Below, piece after piece: positions 4,460 through 23,120 of a stretch of DNA of 25,954 nucleotides. Location: positions 1 through 25,954 of IMG/VR virus record IMGVR_UViG_3300046009_001749. One strand, 5' to 3'. The first letter of the stretch is position 1. The number at the start of each line of letters is the position of its first letter. The position numbers were made by a program, and so were the translations under genes. This stretch comes from a virus. The notes under the pieces are model-generated. The model did not search any database. It saw only the letters and a list, made by a program, of their open reading frames with translations, and had not been told where the DNA came from.

Positions 4460-5755
4460 ATGAAAAAATTTAAAATTAGTGAGGTAAAACTCAACCCAAA
4501 CAACCCACGTTTAATAAAAGACGACAAATTTGAAAAGCTGGTAAAGTCAATAAAAGAGTTTCCAGAGATGCTAGATATTAGACCAATTGTAGTCAATAAA
4601 GATATGGTAATCCTTGGTGGTAATATGCGGTTCAAAGCATGTAAGGAAGCTGGACTAAAAGAAATACCTGTAATTGTTGCCGATAATTTAACAGAGGAGC
4701 AACAAAGAGAATTTTTGATTAAAGACAATACAAGCGGTGGAGAGTGGGATTTTGAAATGTTAGCCAATGAATGGGATAATGAGCAGTTAGAAGAGTGGGG
4801 CTTGGATATTACAGCATTTGAAACTGACGAAGTTTTAGAAGCTAAAGAAAAAACAAAAAAACTATCAGACCGTTTTATTATACCGCCATTTTCGGTTTTA
4901 GATACAAAACAAGGAGCGTGGCAACAAAGAAAAAATTATTGGTTAAGTTTAGGCATTAAAAGCGAAGAGGGAAGAGATGCAAAGGTTAATTGTGATTTAA
5001 AACCATTTAAAGGTAATCCTGATAGATTTGAAGATAAATTAACTTCAATTTTTGACCCAGTACTTTGTGAGTTAGCTTATCAATGGTTTAATATTCCAAA
5101 AGGTAAAATCCTTGACCCGTTTGCTGGCGGTTCTGTTCGTGGAATTGTAGCGGCAAAACTTGGTTTTGAATATTTAGGTAATGATTTAAGACAAGAGCAA
5201 ATATATGCAAACCGTATAAACGCCAAAGATGTTTTAAAAGATGCTGAATTATATCCGACTTGGAATTGTGGCGATAGTTTAAATATTGATAGTATTGCAA
5301 ATGGGTATGAAGCAGATATGATTTTTAGTTGTCCGCCTTATGCTGATTTAGAAGTTTATAGTGATGCAAAAGAAGATATTTCAAATATGCCTTATGATAA
5401 ATTTATAGAGGTTTACAAAGAGATAATAAAAAAATCATGCGATAAATTAAAAGAAGACCGTTTTGCAGTTTTTGTTGTTGGAGATGTTAGATCTAAAAAA
5501 GGATTTTATCAAAATTTTGTTTCTGATACAATAATGGCTTTTTGGAATTGTGGTGTTATTTTATATAATGAAATGATTTTAGTAAATCAAATTGGAAATT
5601 TACCGATGAGAGTTGGTAAAAGTTTTAGTTCTGGTCGTAAAGTAGGTAAACAACACCAAAACGTTTTAGTTTTTTACAAAGGCAATCCTAAAAATATAAA
5701 AGCAAATTACCCTGAATTAGATTTAAGTTATATTAACGATATTGAAACAGAATAA
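4460..5755 (+). CDS. ParB-like domain fused to DNA methyltransferase
   Basis: This 431-residue protein has two parts. Residues 1-100 are a ParB/sulfiredoxin-like domain, with the signature ILGGNMRFKACKEAG at 51-65 (GGNxR). From about 135, starting PPFSVLDTKQGAWQQRK, comes an S-adenosylmethionine-dependent amino-methyltransferase of a type common in phages. ILDPFAGGSVRG at 217-228 is motif I (cofactor), and FSCPPYADLEVYS at 289-301 contains motif IV (PPY, amino-group catalysis). Motif I precedes motif IV. Conserved-looking blocks DRFAVFVVGDVR and GKQHQNVLVFYKG follow. It should methylate adenine N6 or cytosine N4 in phage DNA, protecting it from restriction or marking it. The DNA target is not predictable. 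It ends 2 bases before the small terminase gene. No cognate restriction enzyme is visible. Confidence 0.85.
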   Translation: MKKFKISEVKLNPNNPRLIKDDKFEKLVKSIKEFPEMLDIRPIVVNKDMVILGGNMRFKACKEAGLKEIPVIVADNLTEEQQREFLIKDNTSGGEWDFEMLANEWDNEQLEEWGLDITAFETDEVLEAKEKTKKLSDRFIIPPFSVLDTKQGAWQQRKNYWLSLGIKSEEGRDAKVNCDLKPFKGNPDRFEDKLTSIFDPVLCELAYQWFNIPKGKILDPFAGGSVRGIVAAKLGFEYLGNDLRQEQIYANRINAKDVLKDAELYPTWNCGDSLNIDSIANGYEADMIFSCPPYADLEVYSDAKEDISNMPYDKFIEVYKEIIKKSCDKLKEDRFAVFVVGDVRSKKGFYQNFVSDTIMAFWNCGVILYNEMILVNQIGNLPMRVGKSFSSGRKVGKQHQNVLVFYKGNPKNIKANYPELDLSYINDIETE

Positions 5756-13274: not shown

Positions 13275-13715
13275 ATGGCAACACCAATCAAAGGAGAAGT
13301 TGGAATTCTTTACGTAGCAGACGAGTCAACTTACAAGCCAGTAGCTTGTTTGACTTCAAACAGTTTATCAACAGCCGTTTCGGTTATTGAATCAAACACA
13401 AAATGTAATCCTGGAATTACAAAAAAACAAGCTGGAATGTTCAGTTATACATTAGAAGCCGAGGGCGAGTATATCGACACAACTTCAGTTGGAGGAGATA
13501 GCACAAAAGCATCTCACGACTTTTTATTCGGACTACAACTTGCAAAAGATTTAATCACTTGGAAATTAGTTACTGGAGTTACAGGAGCAACTTATTACGG
13601 AAGTGCTTTAATTTCGGATTTATCTTTGGACTTAGGCTCAGGTGATGACTTAGCAACTTTCTCTTTGACATTAGACGGAGACGGTGAAATCGTTACTGTT
13701 GATCCACTAGACTAA
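13275..13715 (+). CDS. major tail tube protein
   Basis: The 146-residue protein has the all-beta build of TP901-1-type major tail proteins: GILYVADESTYKPVACLTSN at 10-29, TKKQAGMFSYTLEAEGEYID at about 49-68, and SALISDLSLDLGSGDDLATFSLTLDGDGE at the C-terminus. It polymerises into the tail tube along the tape measure. It sits between the tail terminator and the tail-assembly chaperone genes, as in other long-tailed phages. Two further proteins downstream (18495 and 19551) share its N-terminal pattern and its TKASHDF/TKASYDK segment, so they are probable paralogues. Confidence 0.85.
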   Translation: MATPIKGEVGILYVADESTYKPVACLTSNSLSTAVSVIESNTKCNPGITKKQAGMFSYTLEAEGEYIDTTSVGGDSTKASHDFLFGLQLAKDLITWKLVTGVTGATYYGSALISDLSLDLGSGDDLATFSLTLDGDGEIVTVDPLD

Positions 13716-14076: not shown

Positions 14077-14402
14077 ATTTTAAGGCGGATGTAATCGCTT
14101 TTGCTTGTGGCGAACTTGGAATTTTGCGTTTGAGTGATGTTTATGATATGACTTTCGCGGAATTCCAAATTCGCCTTTTTGCGTATAAAAGAATGGAGTT
14201 AAGAGAATGGGAAAAGGTTCGTCAAATAGCTTGGAGTGCATTTATAGCACCGCACCAAGACCCTAAAAAGCTGCCAAAATCAATTGATAAATTTATGAAT
14301 TTAGGAGGCGGAAATAACACAAATAGAGGAGTTGGAATTGAACAAAAAGAAAACTTCTTAAAAGCATACAAAGAATATTTAAACCAAAAGAAAAATGGCT
14401 AA
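13744..14402 (+). CDS. tail assembly chaperone, frameshifted long form (gpGT-like)
   Basis: Reading 13744-14058, then slipping back one base and continuing 14058-14402, gives one protein of about 219 residues joined as KKK-SESNEIDFK. The -1 frame is closed by TAG at 14046-14048, just before the A-run, so the shift must occur at or after 14049. The downstream part has no ATG before Met at 14145; the frame could only initiate at TTG 14124, which is in the middle of a well-conserved-looking helix. It continues ELGILRLSDVYDMTFAEFQI and REWEKVRQIAWSAFIAPHQ, typical of tail chaperone C-terminal (T) domains. Its stop overlaps the tape measure start by 8 bases. Confidence 0.82.
14050..14059 (+). promoter_or_regulatory. 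programmed -1 ribosomal frameshift site
   Basis: Nine consecutive A residues (14050-14058) followed by G form three zero-frame AAA codons; both tRNAs can re-pair fully after a one-base slip (A AAA AAA at 14052-14058). The -1 frame opens only one codon earlier and stays open to 14402. No strong stimulatory hairpin is evident in the bases just downstream, although a homopolymer this long may not need one. Confidence 0.8.
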
Positions 14403-16251
14403 ATTAGAAGTACAGATTGGTGCCGATAGTGGCGAGTTTATGACTGAGGTTGCAAAAGTAGAAAAACAACTTGCAAATCTAAAAAGCCAACAAGCCGCAA
14501 ATTTAAAACTAGGTATTGATACTAGTGCAATTAATAATCAAATAAACGAAACAACTACTAAATTAAATACTTTAAAAGGTACAATTGGTAGTTCAGCTGC
14601 GGCATTCGATAATCACTCAAAATCGGCTGCAAACGGAGGTAATACCTTAATGCAATTTTCTCGTATTGCTCAGGATGCACCTTTTGGGATTATGGGTATT
14701 GGAAACAACTTAACTGCAACCGCTGAAAGTTTTAGTTATTTAGCAAAAAGCTCAGGAGGAGCCGGAAACGCTTTAAAGGCAGTGGCTAGCTCAATAATGG
14801 GTACCGGAGGTATTTTATTAGCTGTTTCTTTGGTTACAACCGGATTGACTATAATGTCTCAACAAGGTTTATCGGTTAGTGATGTATTCAACAAATTAAC
14901 TGGAAATTTTGACGGATTTGCAAATACATTAAAAACAGCATCACAAGAGGCAACTAAGTCAGCAATTGAGGAAACAGGTGCTTTAAAAGGACTAATTGCA
15001 ATTGCACAAGACGAAACGCAAACTAAAAAAATGCGTTTGGAGGCTGTTGATCAATTACAAAAAACTTATCCAAATTATTTTGGCAATTTGTCAAAAGAAG
15101 AGATAATGTATAGTAATTTAACCGGAGTTGTCAACGAAGTTACAAAGGCTTTAATAAATAAGGCTATTGCAGAAAAAATGTCTGAAAAGGCAGCTGAGCC
15201 AACTTTAAAATTGTGGGAGGCAAACGCAAGGTTAATTAAACAAAGAGAAGAGGCAACAAAAGCTGAGGCGGCTTATCAAAAAGCCGCGAGCAATCCGGCA
15301 GCAGCTGGATCAATGCAATTTTACGCATCGGCTTCGGCAAGAGCTGCTGAAAGATTAAAAGAAACAAGGCAAGAGGTTATTGCTTTAAATAAGGAAGTTG
15401 CAAAATACGATAAAGTAATAACAATGGCGTCTCAAAACGCAGCAAAAGTTATACTTAAACCAGGTGCAAGTGCAAAGCCAAAAAAAGCACAAAAAGAATA
15501 TTCCGAAAGAAATGTTGGAGCAATTGCGTTACCAAAAGCAGCCGACTTAGTAGGATTAGACGACAAAGAATTCCAACTTGCAAAAGATAGAATCGGACGC
15601 GACGGAGAGTTAATTAAAACATACGGTAAAGCTGGAGAGTTTGTTAAAGCAAATTTAGTATCTACAAAAGAAGCTGTTCAATCTGAAACAATTCAAATGT
15701 TAATGGCTTTGGCTAATTTTAACGATGCGGCAACTGATATTATAAACAATTCAATCTCAAATACTTTTGCCGGTCTAGGTGAATCAATTGGTTCTGCAAT
15801 GTCAACAGGAGCAAACGTTTTACAGGCGGCCGGAAGTGCATTACTCGCCGGACTTGGAGGTGTTTTAACCGACATGGGTAAAATGGCAATTCAAATTGGG
15901 GTTGGAATGTTAGGAATAAAAGCCGCATTAAAAACCTTAAACCCATACGCAGCGATTGCGGCCGGAATTGCTTTGGTTGCTTTAGGTTCTATTTTTAGCT
16001 CAAAATCAAAAGCGATTGGCGGATCAATGGGAAGCTCGTCAGGTTCTAGCGGTTCTGGTGGGTCTAGCGGAGGAAACATTCAAACCGGAGCTAGCGTTTC
16101 AAGTCCGACAAGCTCAGTTTCTAGCGGAGGAACTTTTAATAACAGCGGAGGAACAGTTGTTTTTGAAATAGCGGGACAAAAATTAATCGGAGTATTAAAT
16201 AACACATTACAGGGAAATCTTAGACTAGGAGGCAGCGGATTAGCTGGATAA
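14395..16251 (+). CDS. tail tape measure protein
   Basis: The 618-residue protein opens with a helical coiled coil (LEVQIGADSGEFMTEVAKVE, then repeated KQLANLKSQQ-type heptads, and INNQINETTTKLNTLK). Hydrophobic stretches lie at about 131-155 (IMGTGGILLAVSLV) and about 480-535 (LLAGLGGVLTDMG to AGIALVALGSIF), and a Gly/Ser-rich segment follows at about 540-560. Location after the frameshifted chaperones and the overall composition fit a tape measure, which fixes tail length and enters the cell envelope on DNA ejection. By the usual ratio of about 1.5 angstrom per residue, the tail would be near 90 nm (an estimate). Confidence 0.9.
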   Translation: MAKLEVQIGADSGEFMTEVAKVEKQLANLKSQQAANLKLGIDTSAINNQINETTTKLNTLKGTIGSSAAAFDNHSKSAANGGNTLMQFSRIAQDAPFGIMGIGNNLTATAESFSYLAKSSGGAGNALKAVASSIMGTGGILLAVSLVTTGLTIMSQQGLSVSDVFNKLTGNFDGFANTLKTASQEATKSAIEETGALKGLIAIAQDETQTKKMRLEAVDQLQKTYPNYFGNLSKEEIMYSNLTGVVNEVTKALINKAIAEKMSEKAAEPTLKLWEANARLIKQREEATKAEAAYQKAASNPAAAGSMQFYASASARAAERLKETRQEVIALNKEVAKYDKVITMASQNAAKVILKPGASAKPKKAQKEYSERNVGAIALPKAADLVGLDDKEFQLAKDRIGRDGELIKTYGKAGEFVKANLVSTKEAVQSETIQMLMALANFNDAATDIINNSISNTFAGLGESIGSAMSTGANVLQAAGSALLAGLGGVLTDMGKMAIQIGVGMLGIKAALKTLNPYAAIAAGIALVALGSIFSSKSKAIGGSMGSSSGSSGSGGSSGGNIQTGASVSSPTSSVSSGGTFNNSGGTVVFEIAGQKLIGVLNNTLQGNLRLGGSGLAG

Positions 16252-18494: not shown

Positions 18495-19541
18495 ATGATA
18501 CATTACAAAGGCGAAGAGCGAATTCTATATTTAAAAATAAACGGCGAATTTTTACCAATTGGCTGTTTGTCTGAAAATTCATTTAGTGAAACCGCTGAGT
18601 CATTTGAAACTACAATAAAAGGCGAGGCAAGTTGGAAAACCGACAGAATATTAAGTCAATCTTATACTTTAAGTTTTAGCGGAATTCAAATATTAACTAA
18701 GTTTTTAAATACTGACTTTTTAAGTTACGACACGTTAAAAGATTTAAAACGAAGACGTCAGTTATTAGAATGGAAAATCGACGGAGATAATTTCCCAATT
18801 GTTGACTCAGGATATTGTTATATTACGGATATTTCGGAGTCGGCTGTTGTTAATGAGTTACTTACATTTAGCGGAACTTTGACAGGTTTTGGAGAGCCTA
18901 GAATTGGATTAGGAAATATTCCAATTGATTGCGTTTTAAGTGATTGGAGTGAATGGAGTGAATGCTCAGGAGGTTTGCAAACTAGAACTAGAACGGTTGT
19001 AACTTCGCCACAATTTGGAGGAAATCCTTGCGGTCCAACTATTGAGACAAGAGATTGTCAAGCACCTTTGCCACCAGTTGATTGCTTAGTTTCTGAGTGG
19101 AGCGATTGGGGACCATGTATAAATGGATCACAAACTAGAACTAGAACAATTCTAACAAGTCCGGAAAATGGAGGAGCGAGTTGCCCAGTTTTAAGCGAGG
19201 TTAGAAGTTGCACAACTTTACCTTATACAATTACGCCGAGCGTAATGACTTATTTTGTTCAAAGTACCGGAACTAAATACGATACAACGACAATTTCTGT
19301 AAATATTCCAAGTGGTAATTTTAGAATTGGAGTGAAAGTAAGCACTGGAGTTGCAACTGCAACGGCTTCTATTACAATAAATGGAATTACAAGAACAATA
19401 ACTAACTCAACAATAAATTTTGCTTATTCAGACTTTTTAACGTTGCCTCAAGGAACTTACAATAGTACAAATTTGAGTTTGTTAGTAGCTCCACAATATG
19501 GAACAGCGGTTGGAGATTTAGTAATTGAGTACGTTGCATAA
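18495..19541 (+). CDS. tail-tube-like protein with two thrombospondin type-1-like repeats
   Basis: This 348-residue protein has three parts. Residues 1-135 align with the next gene product and, more loosely, with the major tail protein (GEERILYLKINGEFLPIGCL, then SGIQI, and ELLTFSGTLTGFGE). Residues 146-188 and 197-239 are two copies of a thrombospondin type-1-like repeat. Each has a W-x-x-W pair (W151/W154 and W202/W205), a QTRTRT strand, and four cysteines with identical spacing (C146, C157, C179, C188 and C197, C208, C230, C239). Residues 243-348 form a beta-rich C-terminal domain. Likely a tail-tip decoration or adhesin. The repeat family is best known from secreted animal proteins. Binding partner unknown. 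Confidence 0.7.
   Translation: MIHYKGEERILYLKINGEFLPIGCLSENSFSETAESFETTIKGEASWKTDRILSQSYTLSFSGIQILTKFLNTDFLSYDTLKDLKRRRQLLEWKIDGDNFPIVDSGYCYITDISESAVVNELLTFSGTLTGFGEPRIGLGNIPIDCVLSDWSEWSECSGGLQTRTRTVVTSPQFGGNPCGPTIETRDCQAPLPPVDCLVSEWSDWGPCINGSQTRTRTILTSPENGGASCPVLSEVRSCTTLPYTITPSVMTYFVQSTGTKYDTTTISVNIPSGNFRIGVKVSTGVATATASITINGITRTITNSTINFAYSDFLTLPQGTYNSTNLSLLVAPQYGTAVGDLVIEYVA
18862..18888 (+). repeat. 27-bp perfect direct repeat, copy 1
   Basis: Identical over 27 bases to 19924-19950, starting TTACATTTAGCGGAAC. It encodes the (L/I)TFSGTLTG segment at the end of the tail-tube-like domain in both genes. It indicates recent duplication or gene conversion between 18495 and 19551, since most of the domain differs more. 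Confidence 0.85.
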
Positions 19542-20057: not shown

Positions 20058-23000
20058 ATGGATTATACATCTATAAAAGTCGGTCAATTGCCGACAGACG
20101 AAATTTCGGGCGGAAATTTTATCCCTCACGAAGTTGCTGGAATATTAAAAAAGGCAACATTTACAGACTTAGCAGCTTTTATTGGTGCAAGTGACGCCGT
20201 AGGATTTAAAGCCGTTTCAGTTCAAAATGGAGATACTTTACCGGCAACATCAACTCAAGAGTTTATTTTGGTTGGTCCTGGAACTTATAACAATGTTGGA
20301 GGAGGCTCGACAATAACAGTAACCGAGGAATTAAACGCTTTAGTTTCAAATGGTACTTATTGGTTTATTGGTGTTGAAATTCCAATTGATGCACCTCCAG
20401 GAAATGCGGTTTGGGGACAAATAATTGGAACTTTAAGCAATCAAACAGACTTACAAAATCTTTTCAATTTAAAAGCGGATCTAGTTGACGGAAAAGTTCC
20501 AAGTTCACAATTGCCAAGTTATGTCGATGACGTTATTGAAGTGGCAAATTACGCAGCTTTACCGGCAACAGGAGAGACAGGGAAAATTTATATCACAATT
20601 GACACGGAATATATTTATCGTTGGTCTGGAAGTGCTTATATTAGAATTGTTGACGAAGCGGCCGCATGGGGAACTATAACGGGAACTTTAAGCAATCAAA
20701 CAGACTTACAAAATGCTTTAAACTCAAAAGAGGACGATATTGCAGCGGGTACAACCGCACAATATTGGAGAGGGGACAAATCTTGGCAAACATTAAATAA
20801 AGCTGCTGTTGGATTATCAAATGTGGATAATACAAGCGATTTAAACAAACCAATTTCAACAGCAACTCAAACAGCCTTAGACGGAAAGTTTGACGATCCG
20901 ACAGGAGACACAACTCAATATATTGCTGGAGACGGAAGTTTAATTTCTTTTCCAATTTCGGGACAAGCCGGAACTTTGGTTAGGGAGGTAAGAAATACAA
21001 CAGGAGCAACTTTGACAAAAGGAACTGTTGTTTATATAAATGGAGCATCCGGAAATAAACCAACAGTCACAAAAGCACTTGCAACAGGAGACTCAACATC
21101 GGCTCAGACTTTTGGACTTATTCAGGCGGATATTTCAAACAATGCAAACGGATATGTTGTTTGTATTGGAGATTTAATAGGAGTAAACACAAGCGGAATT
21201 TCAGTTGGAACTCAATTATATTTATCGTCTTCAGTTGCTGGGGAATATACAACAACAAAACAATACGCACCTAATCATTTGGTTTACGTTGGAGTTGTTA
21301 CTAGATCACATGCAACTCTAGGACAAATTGAGGTTAAAATACAAAACGGATATGAACTTGACGAAATTCATGATGTGGCAATTAGTTCGGTTGCAAACAA
21401 TGAAGTTTTAGTTTATGAAAGTTCTACTAGTTTATGGAAAAATAAAACAATACCAACAATTTTAGGATATACGCCGCAATCACAATTAAGCGGAACGGGT
21501 TTTGTTAAAATTTCAGGAACTACTATTTCTTATGATACTAATACTTATATTCAGTCAGTAGCCGCTACTTTGCCTTTAGGTTCAACGGGTGGAACATCGC
21601 CTGTTATTTCTATAACACAAGCAACTACAAGTTCAAACGGATATTTAAGTTCAACTGATTGGAATACTTTTAACGGAAAACAAAACGCTTTAACCAATCC
21701 AATTACAGGAACAGGAACAACAAATTACTTACCTAAATTTACAGGTTCAACTGCTTTAGGTAATTCTTTGATTTATGATAATGGTACAAATGTTATTATA
21801 GGTAGTAGCGGAAGTACAGGCTCTAAATTATATGTATTAGAATCAGGAACTACAAACAATACTTTATTATTGGCAAATAGCAACGCTTCAAATACTGCTA
21901 ATCTATTACAGTTAAGTATAATAGGTAGCGGAAAAATTATTGAAGCAAATAATGCTACTTCTACTTTATTTTCTGTATCTAATTTAGGTGGAGGTTATTT
22001 TGCAGGCAACGTTGGGATTGGTACAACAAGTCCTCAAACTGCTTTAGATGTTATAAATAGCGGGACATATCAATTGCACGTAGCAAGTGGTACAGGAAGT
22101 TATTCAAATGGTAAAATTTATTTTGGAGGATTAAATACGGGAGACCCGTATTATTATGGAACTATTGGTTGGGACCAATCAGATGTAACAATGAGGATTG
22201 GTGCTCAATGCGGTAATGCAACGGGTGGAATTGCTTTTTATACAAGTCCAAGTACTGCTGCTCAAACCGAACGTATGCGTATCACTTCAGGTGGTTTAGT
22301 AGGAATAGGTACAACCTCGCCTTATTCAAAATTAGAAATAGTAGGAGCAGCAACAAGTTATTCAAATTCTCCTTCTATTGTATTAACTGATAACGCAGGA
22401 ACTACAGATAGTAGAAGATGGTTGATTGGTAACGTTGCTACAGATTATGGTTCATTAAATTTTGCTGTATCTTCAACAAATTCAGATGCTCCAACAAATT
22501 CCAAAATGACCATTACAAAGGCAGGTAATGTAGGAATTGGTACAACTTCATCAAGTGCAAGACTTTCTGTAGTAAACGCTGTTTCAACAACGGCAACAGT
22601 TATGTCTATTGGTACATCTAATAACGGATTAAATTTTATAATAAATTCAAATGGCGCCCCTGAAATATCATCGGCTGCAGCAGTTGCACCAATATATTTT
22701 AGTCAAGGTTCTACAAGAGTTATGACATTAAGTGATAACAGCAACGTAGGGATTGGTACAACAAGTCCGAGTTATACATTACACGTTAACGGTTCAGTTG
22801 CGGGTACAAGTGCTTACAATAACTTATCTGACAAAAGATATAAAAAAGATATATTACCAATTCAAAACGCTTTAGATAAAATTTTAGCTTTAAATGGTGT
22901 TACTTTTAATTGGGATAAAGAAGCTACTGATATGAATTTAGACGATAATAATCATATTGGTTTACTTGCTCAAGATGTAGAAGAAATATTACCACAAGCA

Positions 23001-23120
23001 GTAACAACAGGAACAGATGAGAATAAAACAAAATCAGTTGCTTATACAGATTTAGTGCCTGTTTTAATTGAAGCTATTAAAGAACTAAAAGCAGAAATAG
23101 AAATTTTAAAAAACAAATAA
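20058..23120 (+). CDS. tail fibre with C-terminal S74 intramolecular chaperone
   Basis: The 1020-residue protein is a modular receptor-binding fibre. The N-terminal part (about 1-135) probably attaches to the tail. Next come two related blocks containing GTLSNQTDLQN (near residues 126 and 211), then beta-rich segments. Four GIGTTS-P-type repeats follow (near residues 653, 749, 825 and 898), which mark triple-beta-helix shaft segments in many phage fibres. The last about 97 residues are a Peptidase_S74 / endosialidase-type chaperone: S924 and K929 in SDKRYKKD form the expected Ser-Lys pair, followed by HIGLLAQDVEEILP and a terminal coiled coil. The chaperone should trimerise the fibre and cut itself off before S924. 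Codon choice drifts toward GGT after about 21470, hinting at a swapped receptor-binding end. Confidence 0.88.
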   Translation: MDYTSIKVGQLPTDEISGGNFIPHEVAGILKKATFTDLAAFIGASDAVGFKAVSVQNGDTLPATSTQEFILVGPGTYNNVGGGSTITVTEELNALVSNGTYWFIGVEIPIDAPPGNAVWGQIIGTLSNQTDLQNLFNLKADLVDGKVPSSQLPSYVDDVIEVANYAALPATGETGKIYITIDTEYIYRWSGSAYIRIVDEAAAWGTITGTLSNQTDLQNALNSKEDDIAAGTTAQYWRGDKSWQTLNKAAVGLSNVDNTSDLNKPISTATQTALDGKFDDPTGDTTQYIAGDGSLISFPISGQAGTLVREVRNTTGATLTKGTVVYINGASGNKPTVTKALATGDSTSAQTFGLIQADISNNANGYVVCIGDLIGVNTSGISVGTQLYLSSSVAGEYTTTKQYAPNHLVYVGVVTRSHATLGQIEVKIQNGYELDEIHDVAISSVANNEVLVYESSTSLWKNKTIPTILGYTPQSQLSGTGFVKISGTTISYDTNTYIQSVAATLPLGSTGGTSPVISITQATTSSNGYLSSTDWNTFNGKQNALTNPITGTGTTNYLPKFTGSTALGNSLIYDNGTNVIIGSSGSTGSKLYVLESGTTNNTLLLANSNASNTANLLQLSIIGSGKIIEANNATSTLFSVSNLGGGYFAGNVGIGTTSPQTALDVINSGTYQLHVASGTGSYSNGKIYFGGLNTGDPYYYGTIGWDQSDVTMRIGAQCGNATGGIAFYTSPSTAAQTERMRITSGGLVGIGTTSPYSKLEIVGAATSYSNSPSIVLTDNAGTTDSRRWLIGNVATDYGSLNFAVSSTNSDAPTNSKMTITKAGNVGIGTTSSSARLSVVNAVSTTATVMSIGTSNNGLNFIINSNGAPEISSAAAVAPIYFSQGSTRVMTLSDNSNVGIGTTSPSYTLHVNGSVAGTSAYNNLSDKRYKKDILPIQNALDKILALNGVTFNWDKEATDMNLDDNNHIGLLAQDVEEILPQAVTTGTDENKTKSVAYTDLVPVLIEAIKELKAEIEILKNK
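20427..20459 (+). repeat. 33-bp perfect direct repeat in the fibre gene, copy 1
   Basis: Identical over 33 bases to 20682-20714; both encode the GTLSNQTDLQN motif preceded by a WG-I-G strand. It marks internal duplication of a short fibre module of about 85 residues and is a possible site for recombination. Confidence 0.9.
20682..20714 (+). repeat. 33-bp perfect direct repeat in the fibre gene, copy 2
   Basis: Second copy of the repeat at 20427-20459, 255 bases later (in frame), encoding GTLSNQTDLQN again. Confidence 0.9.

Follow-up and report, generated by a model that had tools for sequence, protein, structure and literature searches.

What would a pair of thrombospondin type-1 repeats (TSRs), which textbooks present as adhesion modules in animals and in apicomplexan parasites, do on the tail of a bacteriophage? 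The question was raised by a 348-residue protein encoded in the window, which is the whole stretch of 25,954 nucleotides of viral DNA that was analyzed. It was addressed through the domains of the protein and its place among the tail genes, the form of the repeats, their spread in phages and bacteria, and the functions that they may serve.

Architecture and operon context of the TSR protein

The features of the tail region are listed in Table 1. The N-terminal part of the TSR protein (residues 4-135) matched phrog_1407, a major tail protein family, with an E-value of 1.1e-22 in the PHROG profile search. In Pfam, Phage_tail_2 was matched with an E-value of 1.9e-4 and 21.9 bits, slightly below the cut-off of 23.8. 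Furthermore, the N-terminus of the AlphaFold model aligned with tail-tube proteins at Z-scores of about 9-11 (VIA-align). The original prediction had placed the protein in the phage tail, and this was supported both by the tail-tube domain and by the position of the gene in a tail operon. The model of the whole protein was moderate, with a mean pLDDT of 65 and a pTM of 0.30-0.35. The folding alignments A3 and A4 were set aside because paralogs were drawn onto the TSRs, and A5 and A6 were used instead. The C-terminal residues 246-348 resembled the sandwiches of SIDT1 and of the ColG collagen-binding domain (VIA-align; Z-scores of 8-10 and an rmsd of 2.5-2.8 across about 90-100 residues); for a small beta-sandwich, such scores would point to a fold class, with no function implied. 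The protein had ten cysteines in total, four in each repeat and two in the tube domain.

Table 1. Tail genes of the window, with the domains and shared bases of the TSR protein.
Feature	Position in window	Strand	Support
Main tail-tube protein, third paralog, undecorated	13275..13715	+	phrog_1407, E 4e-32
Likely tape measure protein	14395..16251	+	phrog_25337, E 9e-9; 45% identical to phage 11b counterpart
Distal-tail protein, 739 aa	16256..18475	+	phrog_33803, E 8e-181; 41% identical to phage 11b
TSR protein, 348 aa (tail-tube domain, two TSRs, C-terminal beta-sandwich)	18495..19541	+	ORF, profiles, model
Tail-tube domain (gpV/TP901-1-like), N-terminal, residues 4-135	18504..18899	+	phrog_1407, Phage_tail_2, Z 9-11
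TSR1, residues 146-188, 4 Cys	18930..19058	+	PF19028 and PF00090; pLDDT ~75-93
17-base identical stretch, copy 1, QTRTRT codons	18978..18994	+	sequence comparison
TSR2, residues 197-239, 4 Cys	19083..19211	+	PF19028 and PF00090, second stretch; pLDDT ~80-90
17-base identical stretch, copy 2	19131..19147	+	sequence comparison
C-terminal beta-sandwich, residues 246-348	19230..19538	+	Z 8-10 to SIDT1, ColG collagen-binding domain
TSR-free tail-tube paralog, 168 aa	19551..20057	+	59% identical to TSR protein over tube domain
Tail fiber with C-terminal Peptidase_S74 chaperone	20058..23120	+	PF13884, E 9e-18; fiber PHROGs

The genes were arranged in the order main tube, tape measure, 739-aa protein, TSR protein, TSR-free paralog, and S74 fiber. 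The TSR gene was located between the gene of the 739-aa tip protein and the TSR-free paralog, with the fiber following, and this order makes a tail-tip location of the TSR protein likely. In Flavobacterium phage 11b (NC_006356), the tape measure, the 739-aa protein, a tail-tube paralog and the fiber followed one another in the same order, at 41-49% identity. The distal-tail protein was equal in length to PHG11b_43, and the counterpart of the TSR-free paralog was PHG11b_44. Unlike the window, phage 11b had no TSR protein and possessed the TSR-free paralog only. Cellulophaga phage phi10:1, which was syntenic and similar to 11b, also carried the undecorated paralog only. The simplest reading of these two phages is a gene duplication with the extension of one copy. 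A distal tail-tube-like gene would have given rise to the undecorated copy downstream and to a second copy, which would have gained two reduced TSRs and the beta-sandwich at its C-terminus. The same TSR architecture was found in two near relatives, L003 (98% identical) and L004 (80% identical). A homolog of the 739-aa protein was present in a Bacteroidota genome and, together with the relatives of the phage, suggests that the host probably belongs to the Bacteroidota. Elsewhere in the window (4460-5755), a 431-aa protein combined a part resembling ParB at its N-terminus (phrog_620, residues 2-131) with a DNA methyltransferase-like part (phrog_498).

The two repeats and their cysteines

Two repeats with a W-S-x-W core, a QTRTRT strand and equally spaced cysteines had been predicted from the sequence, and all of these elements were found. 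The cores lay at W151/W154 and W202/W205, QTRTRT occurred in TSR1 and TSR2 alike, and the cysteines at 146, 157, 179 and 188 and at 197, 208, 230 and 239 had the identical spacing of 11/22/9. The proposed membership in the TSP1 family was confirmed by Pfam, in which the whole protein exceeded the curated cut-offs of PF19028 (TSP1_spondin; E 3e-26, 91.9 bits against 41) and PF00090 (TSP_1; E 3.5e-12, 46.8 bits against 21.6), each in two stretches. In addition, a phmmer search of the PDB returned complement C8 beta (1.6e-9), C7, thrombospondin-1, F-spondin and further TSR proteins. The AlphaFold model, made from a TSR-rich alignment, had the three-stranded TSR fold, with the TSRs at a pLDDT of about 75-93. 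As the original prediction had anticipated, its best fold matches were TSR structures: Foldseek ranks 1-3 were human thrombospondin-1 TSRs (1lsl, 7yyk and 3r6b; probability 1.00, E 7e-5 to 1.1e-4), followed by the lambda tail-tube protein V (gpV) and other tail-tube proteins. The thrombospondin-1 matches had low TM-scores of 0.37-0.38 by target, with an rmsd of 7.6 across the doublet, probably because the two repeats stand at a different angle to each other. Moreover, the residues of the Trp-Arg ladder were present in the sequence, namely W151/W154 with R164/R166/R186 and W202/W205 with R215/R217/R237.

The disulfides of group-2 TSRs are C1-C4, C2-C5 and C3-C6, and the last of these matches a bond also found in group 1 (PMC6096484). 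Compared with group-2 TSRs (PF19028/PF00090; F-spondin and bacterial cell-surface proteins), the repeats of the window shared the WSxWSxC core, the TRTRT strand, GGxxCP and the final cysteine. They differed in being on a phage tail-tube protein and in lacking both C3, with a shortened CSxxCGGG segment, and C6, so that four cysteines per repeat were found in place of the canonical six with three disulfides. As C3 and C6 are absent, the C3-C6 disulfide cannot form, and we infer from the remaining cysteines that these are two-disulfide TSRs with C1-C4 and C2-C5. The predicted disulfide stabilization must be qualified, since each repeat retained only four of the canonical six cysteines.

The absence of C3 was common to all 91 parsed phage TSRs, and C3 was present in CSxxCGGG in all 13 bacterial TSRs compared. 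The C6 of CNTQPC was also scored as present in 13 of 13 bacterial TSRs, one of which was cut by the contig end with its C6 unseen. The bacterial CNTQPCPVDC corresponded to CQAPLPPVDC in the window protein, which was of the same length and had proline in place of C6. Many other phage TSRs did have a cysteine after C5, at a variable distance, and it was often the first cysteine of the next module; hence the loss of C6 is firm for the window protein and not general. Query bias as the cause of the missing C3 was checked by scanning the viral contigs with C3-containing bacterial TSRs, and was rejected because most of what these queries recovered was the same set of phage TSRs without C3. The same queries also gave two viral contigs with C3-type repeats, and these canonical-type TSRs (L062:4803-5807 and L077:4731-5780) were unlike those of the other viral contigs. 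Tail proteins are made in the reducing cytoplasm, which could account for the tolerance of fewer disulfides in these TSRs.

TSR1 and TSR2 were identical at 22 of 45 amino acids and 76 of 135 nucleotides. The 17 bases which the copies had been said to share were real, and the stretch CAAACTAGAACTAGAAC was found at 18978 and 19131 only. It codes for the best-conserved motif of the whole TSR family. The claim built on it, that the copies arose by duplication, did not hold: TSR1 and TSR2 ranked only 47th and 83rd of 101 as the match of each other. A recent tandem duplication was rejected, as each repeat was nearer to TSRs of other phages and the two did not pair in the tree. A recent transfer from a foreign genome was also unsupported. 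The GC content of the TSR stretch was 43.6% against 32.7%, but its GC3 of 22% did not differ from that of the remaining gene, and the GC excess was hence due to amino-acid content. Between the TSR region and its L004 orthologue, dN was 0.109 and dS was 0.677 (dN/dS about 0.16) and 8 of 8 cysteines were kept; by this comparison, purifying selection acts on the TSRs.

Spread of TSRs in phages and bacteria

A TSR alignment scan of 2.9 million viral contigs gave 33 loci, nearly all with clear TSRs, and the short TSR was found in about 30 other uncultured phage contigs besides the window. By contrast, no TSR was detected in 50,697 deposited phages by tblastn at E-values of 0.001 to 1 depending on the query, a search that short divergent copies could escape. 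Thus, the survey of other phages that had been suggested was positive for uncultured phages and negative for deposited ones. No PHROGs or NCBIfam family covering these TSRs was returned by the profile search.

The phage proteins carried 1 to 11 copies (11 in one protein of 2044 aa), with 92 distinct repeats in all. The carriers were unrelated, and included a family with a short Cys-rich N-terminal anchor, a virion structural family (phrog_14478), a family adjoining a tape measure (phrog_38559) and giant multi-repeat proteins. Such an occurrence on unrelated phage proteins is what would be expected of a mobile adhesion module. The combination of tail tube and TSR was considered as a general form in TSR phages and was rejected; phrog_1407 matched only the two close relatives among 28 TSR-phage records, so this architecture is clade-specific.

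Several other carriers had forms of their own. The Cys-rich N-terminal segment C.GEPCEEI...CVRYTGPAIPCL before the TSRs was common to L005, L010, L011, L016, L024, L031 and L032, on contigs of up to 124 kb; it had no PHROG or Pfam match and looks like an anchor domain. The contigs L012, L014, L019 and L021 (3-6407) encoded related giant phage proteins of about 1800-2135 aa with 8, 11, 10 and 10 TSRs, respectively, and another module stood between some of the TSRs. Arrays of TSRs thus seem to grow and shrink from one related phage to another. In a phage protein of 1178 aa (L056:1954-5490), there were six longer TSR-like repeats with an inserted WTTC/WGPC segment (PF19028, E 4e-38); its C-terminal part reads like a beta-helix spike, and its TSR form was unlike that of the window.

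The scan of bacterial genomes gave 10 loci in mixed phyla. Among 395 Bacteroidota genomes, PF19028 was above the cut-off in a single one, which had itself been chosen as the center of the search; judged by this profile, the TSR is very rare in genomes of the Bacteroidota. About 50 TSR matches lay in one open frame of about 3500 aa on L049 (3-10529), a contig of an actinobacterial (Micrococcales) MAG.

Proposed function of the tail-tube decoration

The TSR protein is, on a balance that favors this reading, a decorated distal tail-tube protein which would form a ring close to the tip of the tail and attach to host glycans through its TSRs. Gene order and homology suggest that the tube domain most likely builds such a ring or is part of one. 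Known tail tubes are hexameric rings, and if this ring is hexameric, about 12 TSRs would project from it. Through the projecting TSRs, the particle might be retained on surface glycans of the host until the fiber or tip engages. The most likely role of the decoration is predicted to be host-glycan binding, in which the TSRs and the beta-sandwich would serve as low-affinity, high-avidity binders, like the carbohydrate-binding modules of 936 phages. Since two of the six cysteines are absent, knowledge of ligands from canonical TSRs may not transfer.

Similar arrangements have been found in other phages. Lambda gpV, with its C-terminal Ig-like domain, also joins an extra C-terminal domain to a tail-tube domain and was among the fold matches. 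However, the decoration in the window consists of TSRs and a beta-sandwich, and it is on a separate downstream paralog and not on the main tube protein. In siphophages, carbohydrate-binding modules occur on major tail proteins, on Dit and on neck proteins, and two of them were shown to bind the host (PMC6669499). The MTP-TpeX and evolved Dit of 936 phages are alike in that binding modules were added to tail building blocks, but the folds and hosts are unrelated, and host binding is experimental there and predicted here (PMC6669499).

The main rival to glycan binding is a purely structural stalk, in which the TSRs act only as a stiff spacer or clamp for the beta-sandwich or fiber at the tip, with no host binding. 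TSRs are elongated modules, and the true ligand-binding part could be the beta-sandwich, carried by the TSRs as a stalk. Nevertheless, the W/R/T motif residues were (nearly) invariant across unrelated phage proteins with very different neighbors, and a copy number of 1-11 is no less compatible with avidity than with spacing, so we regard this alternative as unlikely, though a serious competitor. It is quite improbable that the targets of the TSRs are animal, mucus or other eukaryotic glycans, by which the phage would be kept in the habitat of its host in the manner of bacteriophage adherence to mucus. Metazoan TSRs bind glycosaminoglycans (PMC8487547), and mucin and heparan sulfate are bound by Ig-like adhesins of phages (PMC13370021), but nothing in the analysis tied the phage to animals, and its cultured, syntenic relatives infect Flavobacterium and Cellulophaga; the suggested binding to animal or mucus surfaces was thus unsupported. 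Least credible is a convergent WSxW/TRT-rich cysteine repeat with no true TSP1 kinship, which the missing C3 and C6 would favor but which is opposed by the E-values to PF19028 and PF00090, by the TSR structures at the top of the fold matches, and by the identity of about 60%, over the full domain length, between some phage TSRs and bacterial TSRs with C3.

Beyond the window, the stripped-down TSR recurred in about 30 contigs, which points to a class of phage attachment parts that is as yet undescribed. More tentatively, and with slightly less than even confidence, the phage TSR subfamily lacking C3, and so the C3-C6 disulfide, may be a widespread class of adhesion modules of uncultured phages that has gone undescribed. 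It would be placed in 1-11 copies on tail-tube, tip and appendage proteins, bind host surface glycans, and be independent of animals and almost absent from host genomes. No description of TSRs in phages was found in the open-access literature, in which PMC7824862 merely cites an unrelated thrombospondin paper. The TSR fold is known, and its placement on phage tails and its reduced-Cys form are undescribed in that literature. Known decorations of phages are Ig-like, FN3, BACON and carbohydrate-binding modules, and the recurrent reduced-Cys TSRs on phage tails add one fold to them. The phage copies also touch on the question of the minimal TSR, as they are without the disulfide common to groups 1 and 2. 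In addition, as the TSR is so rare in Bacteroidota genomes, the origin of the phage copies becomes a testable question, and the TSRs are a concrete receptor-binding candidate for these phages.
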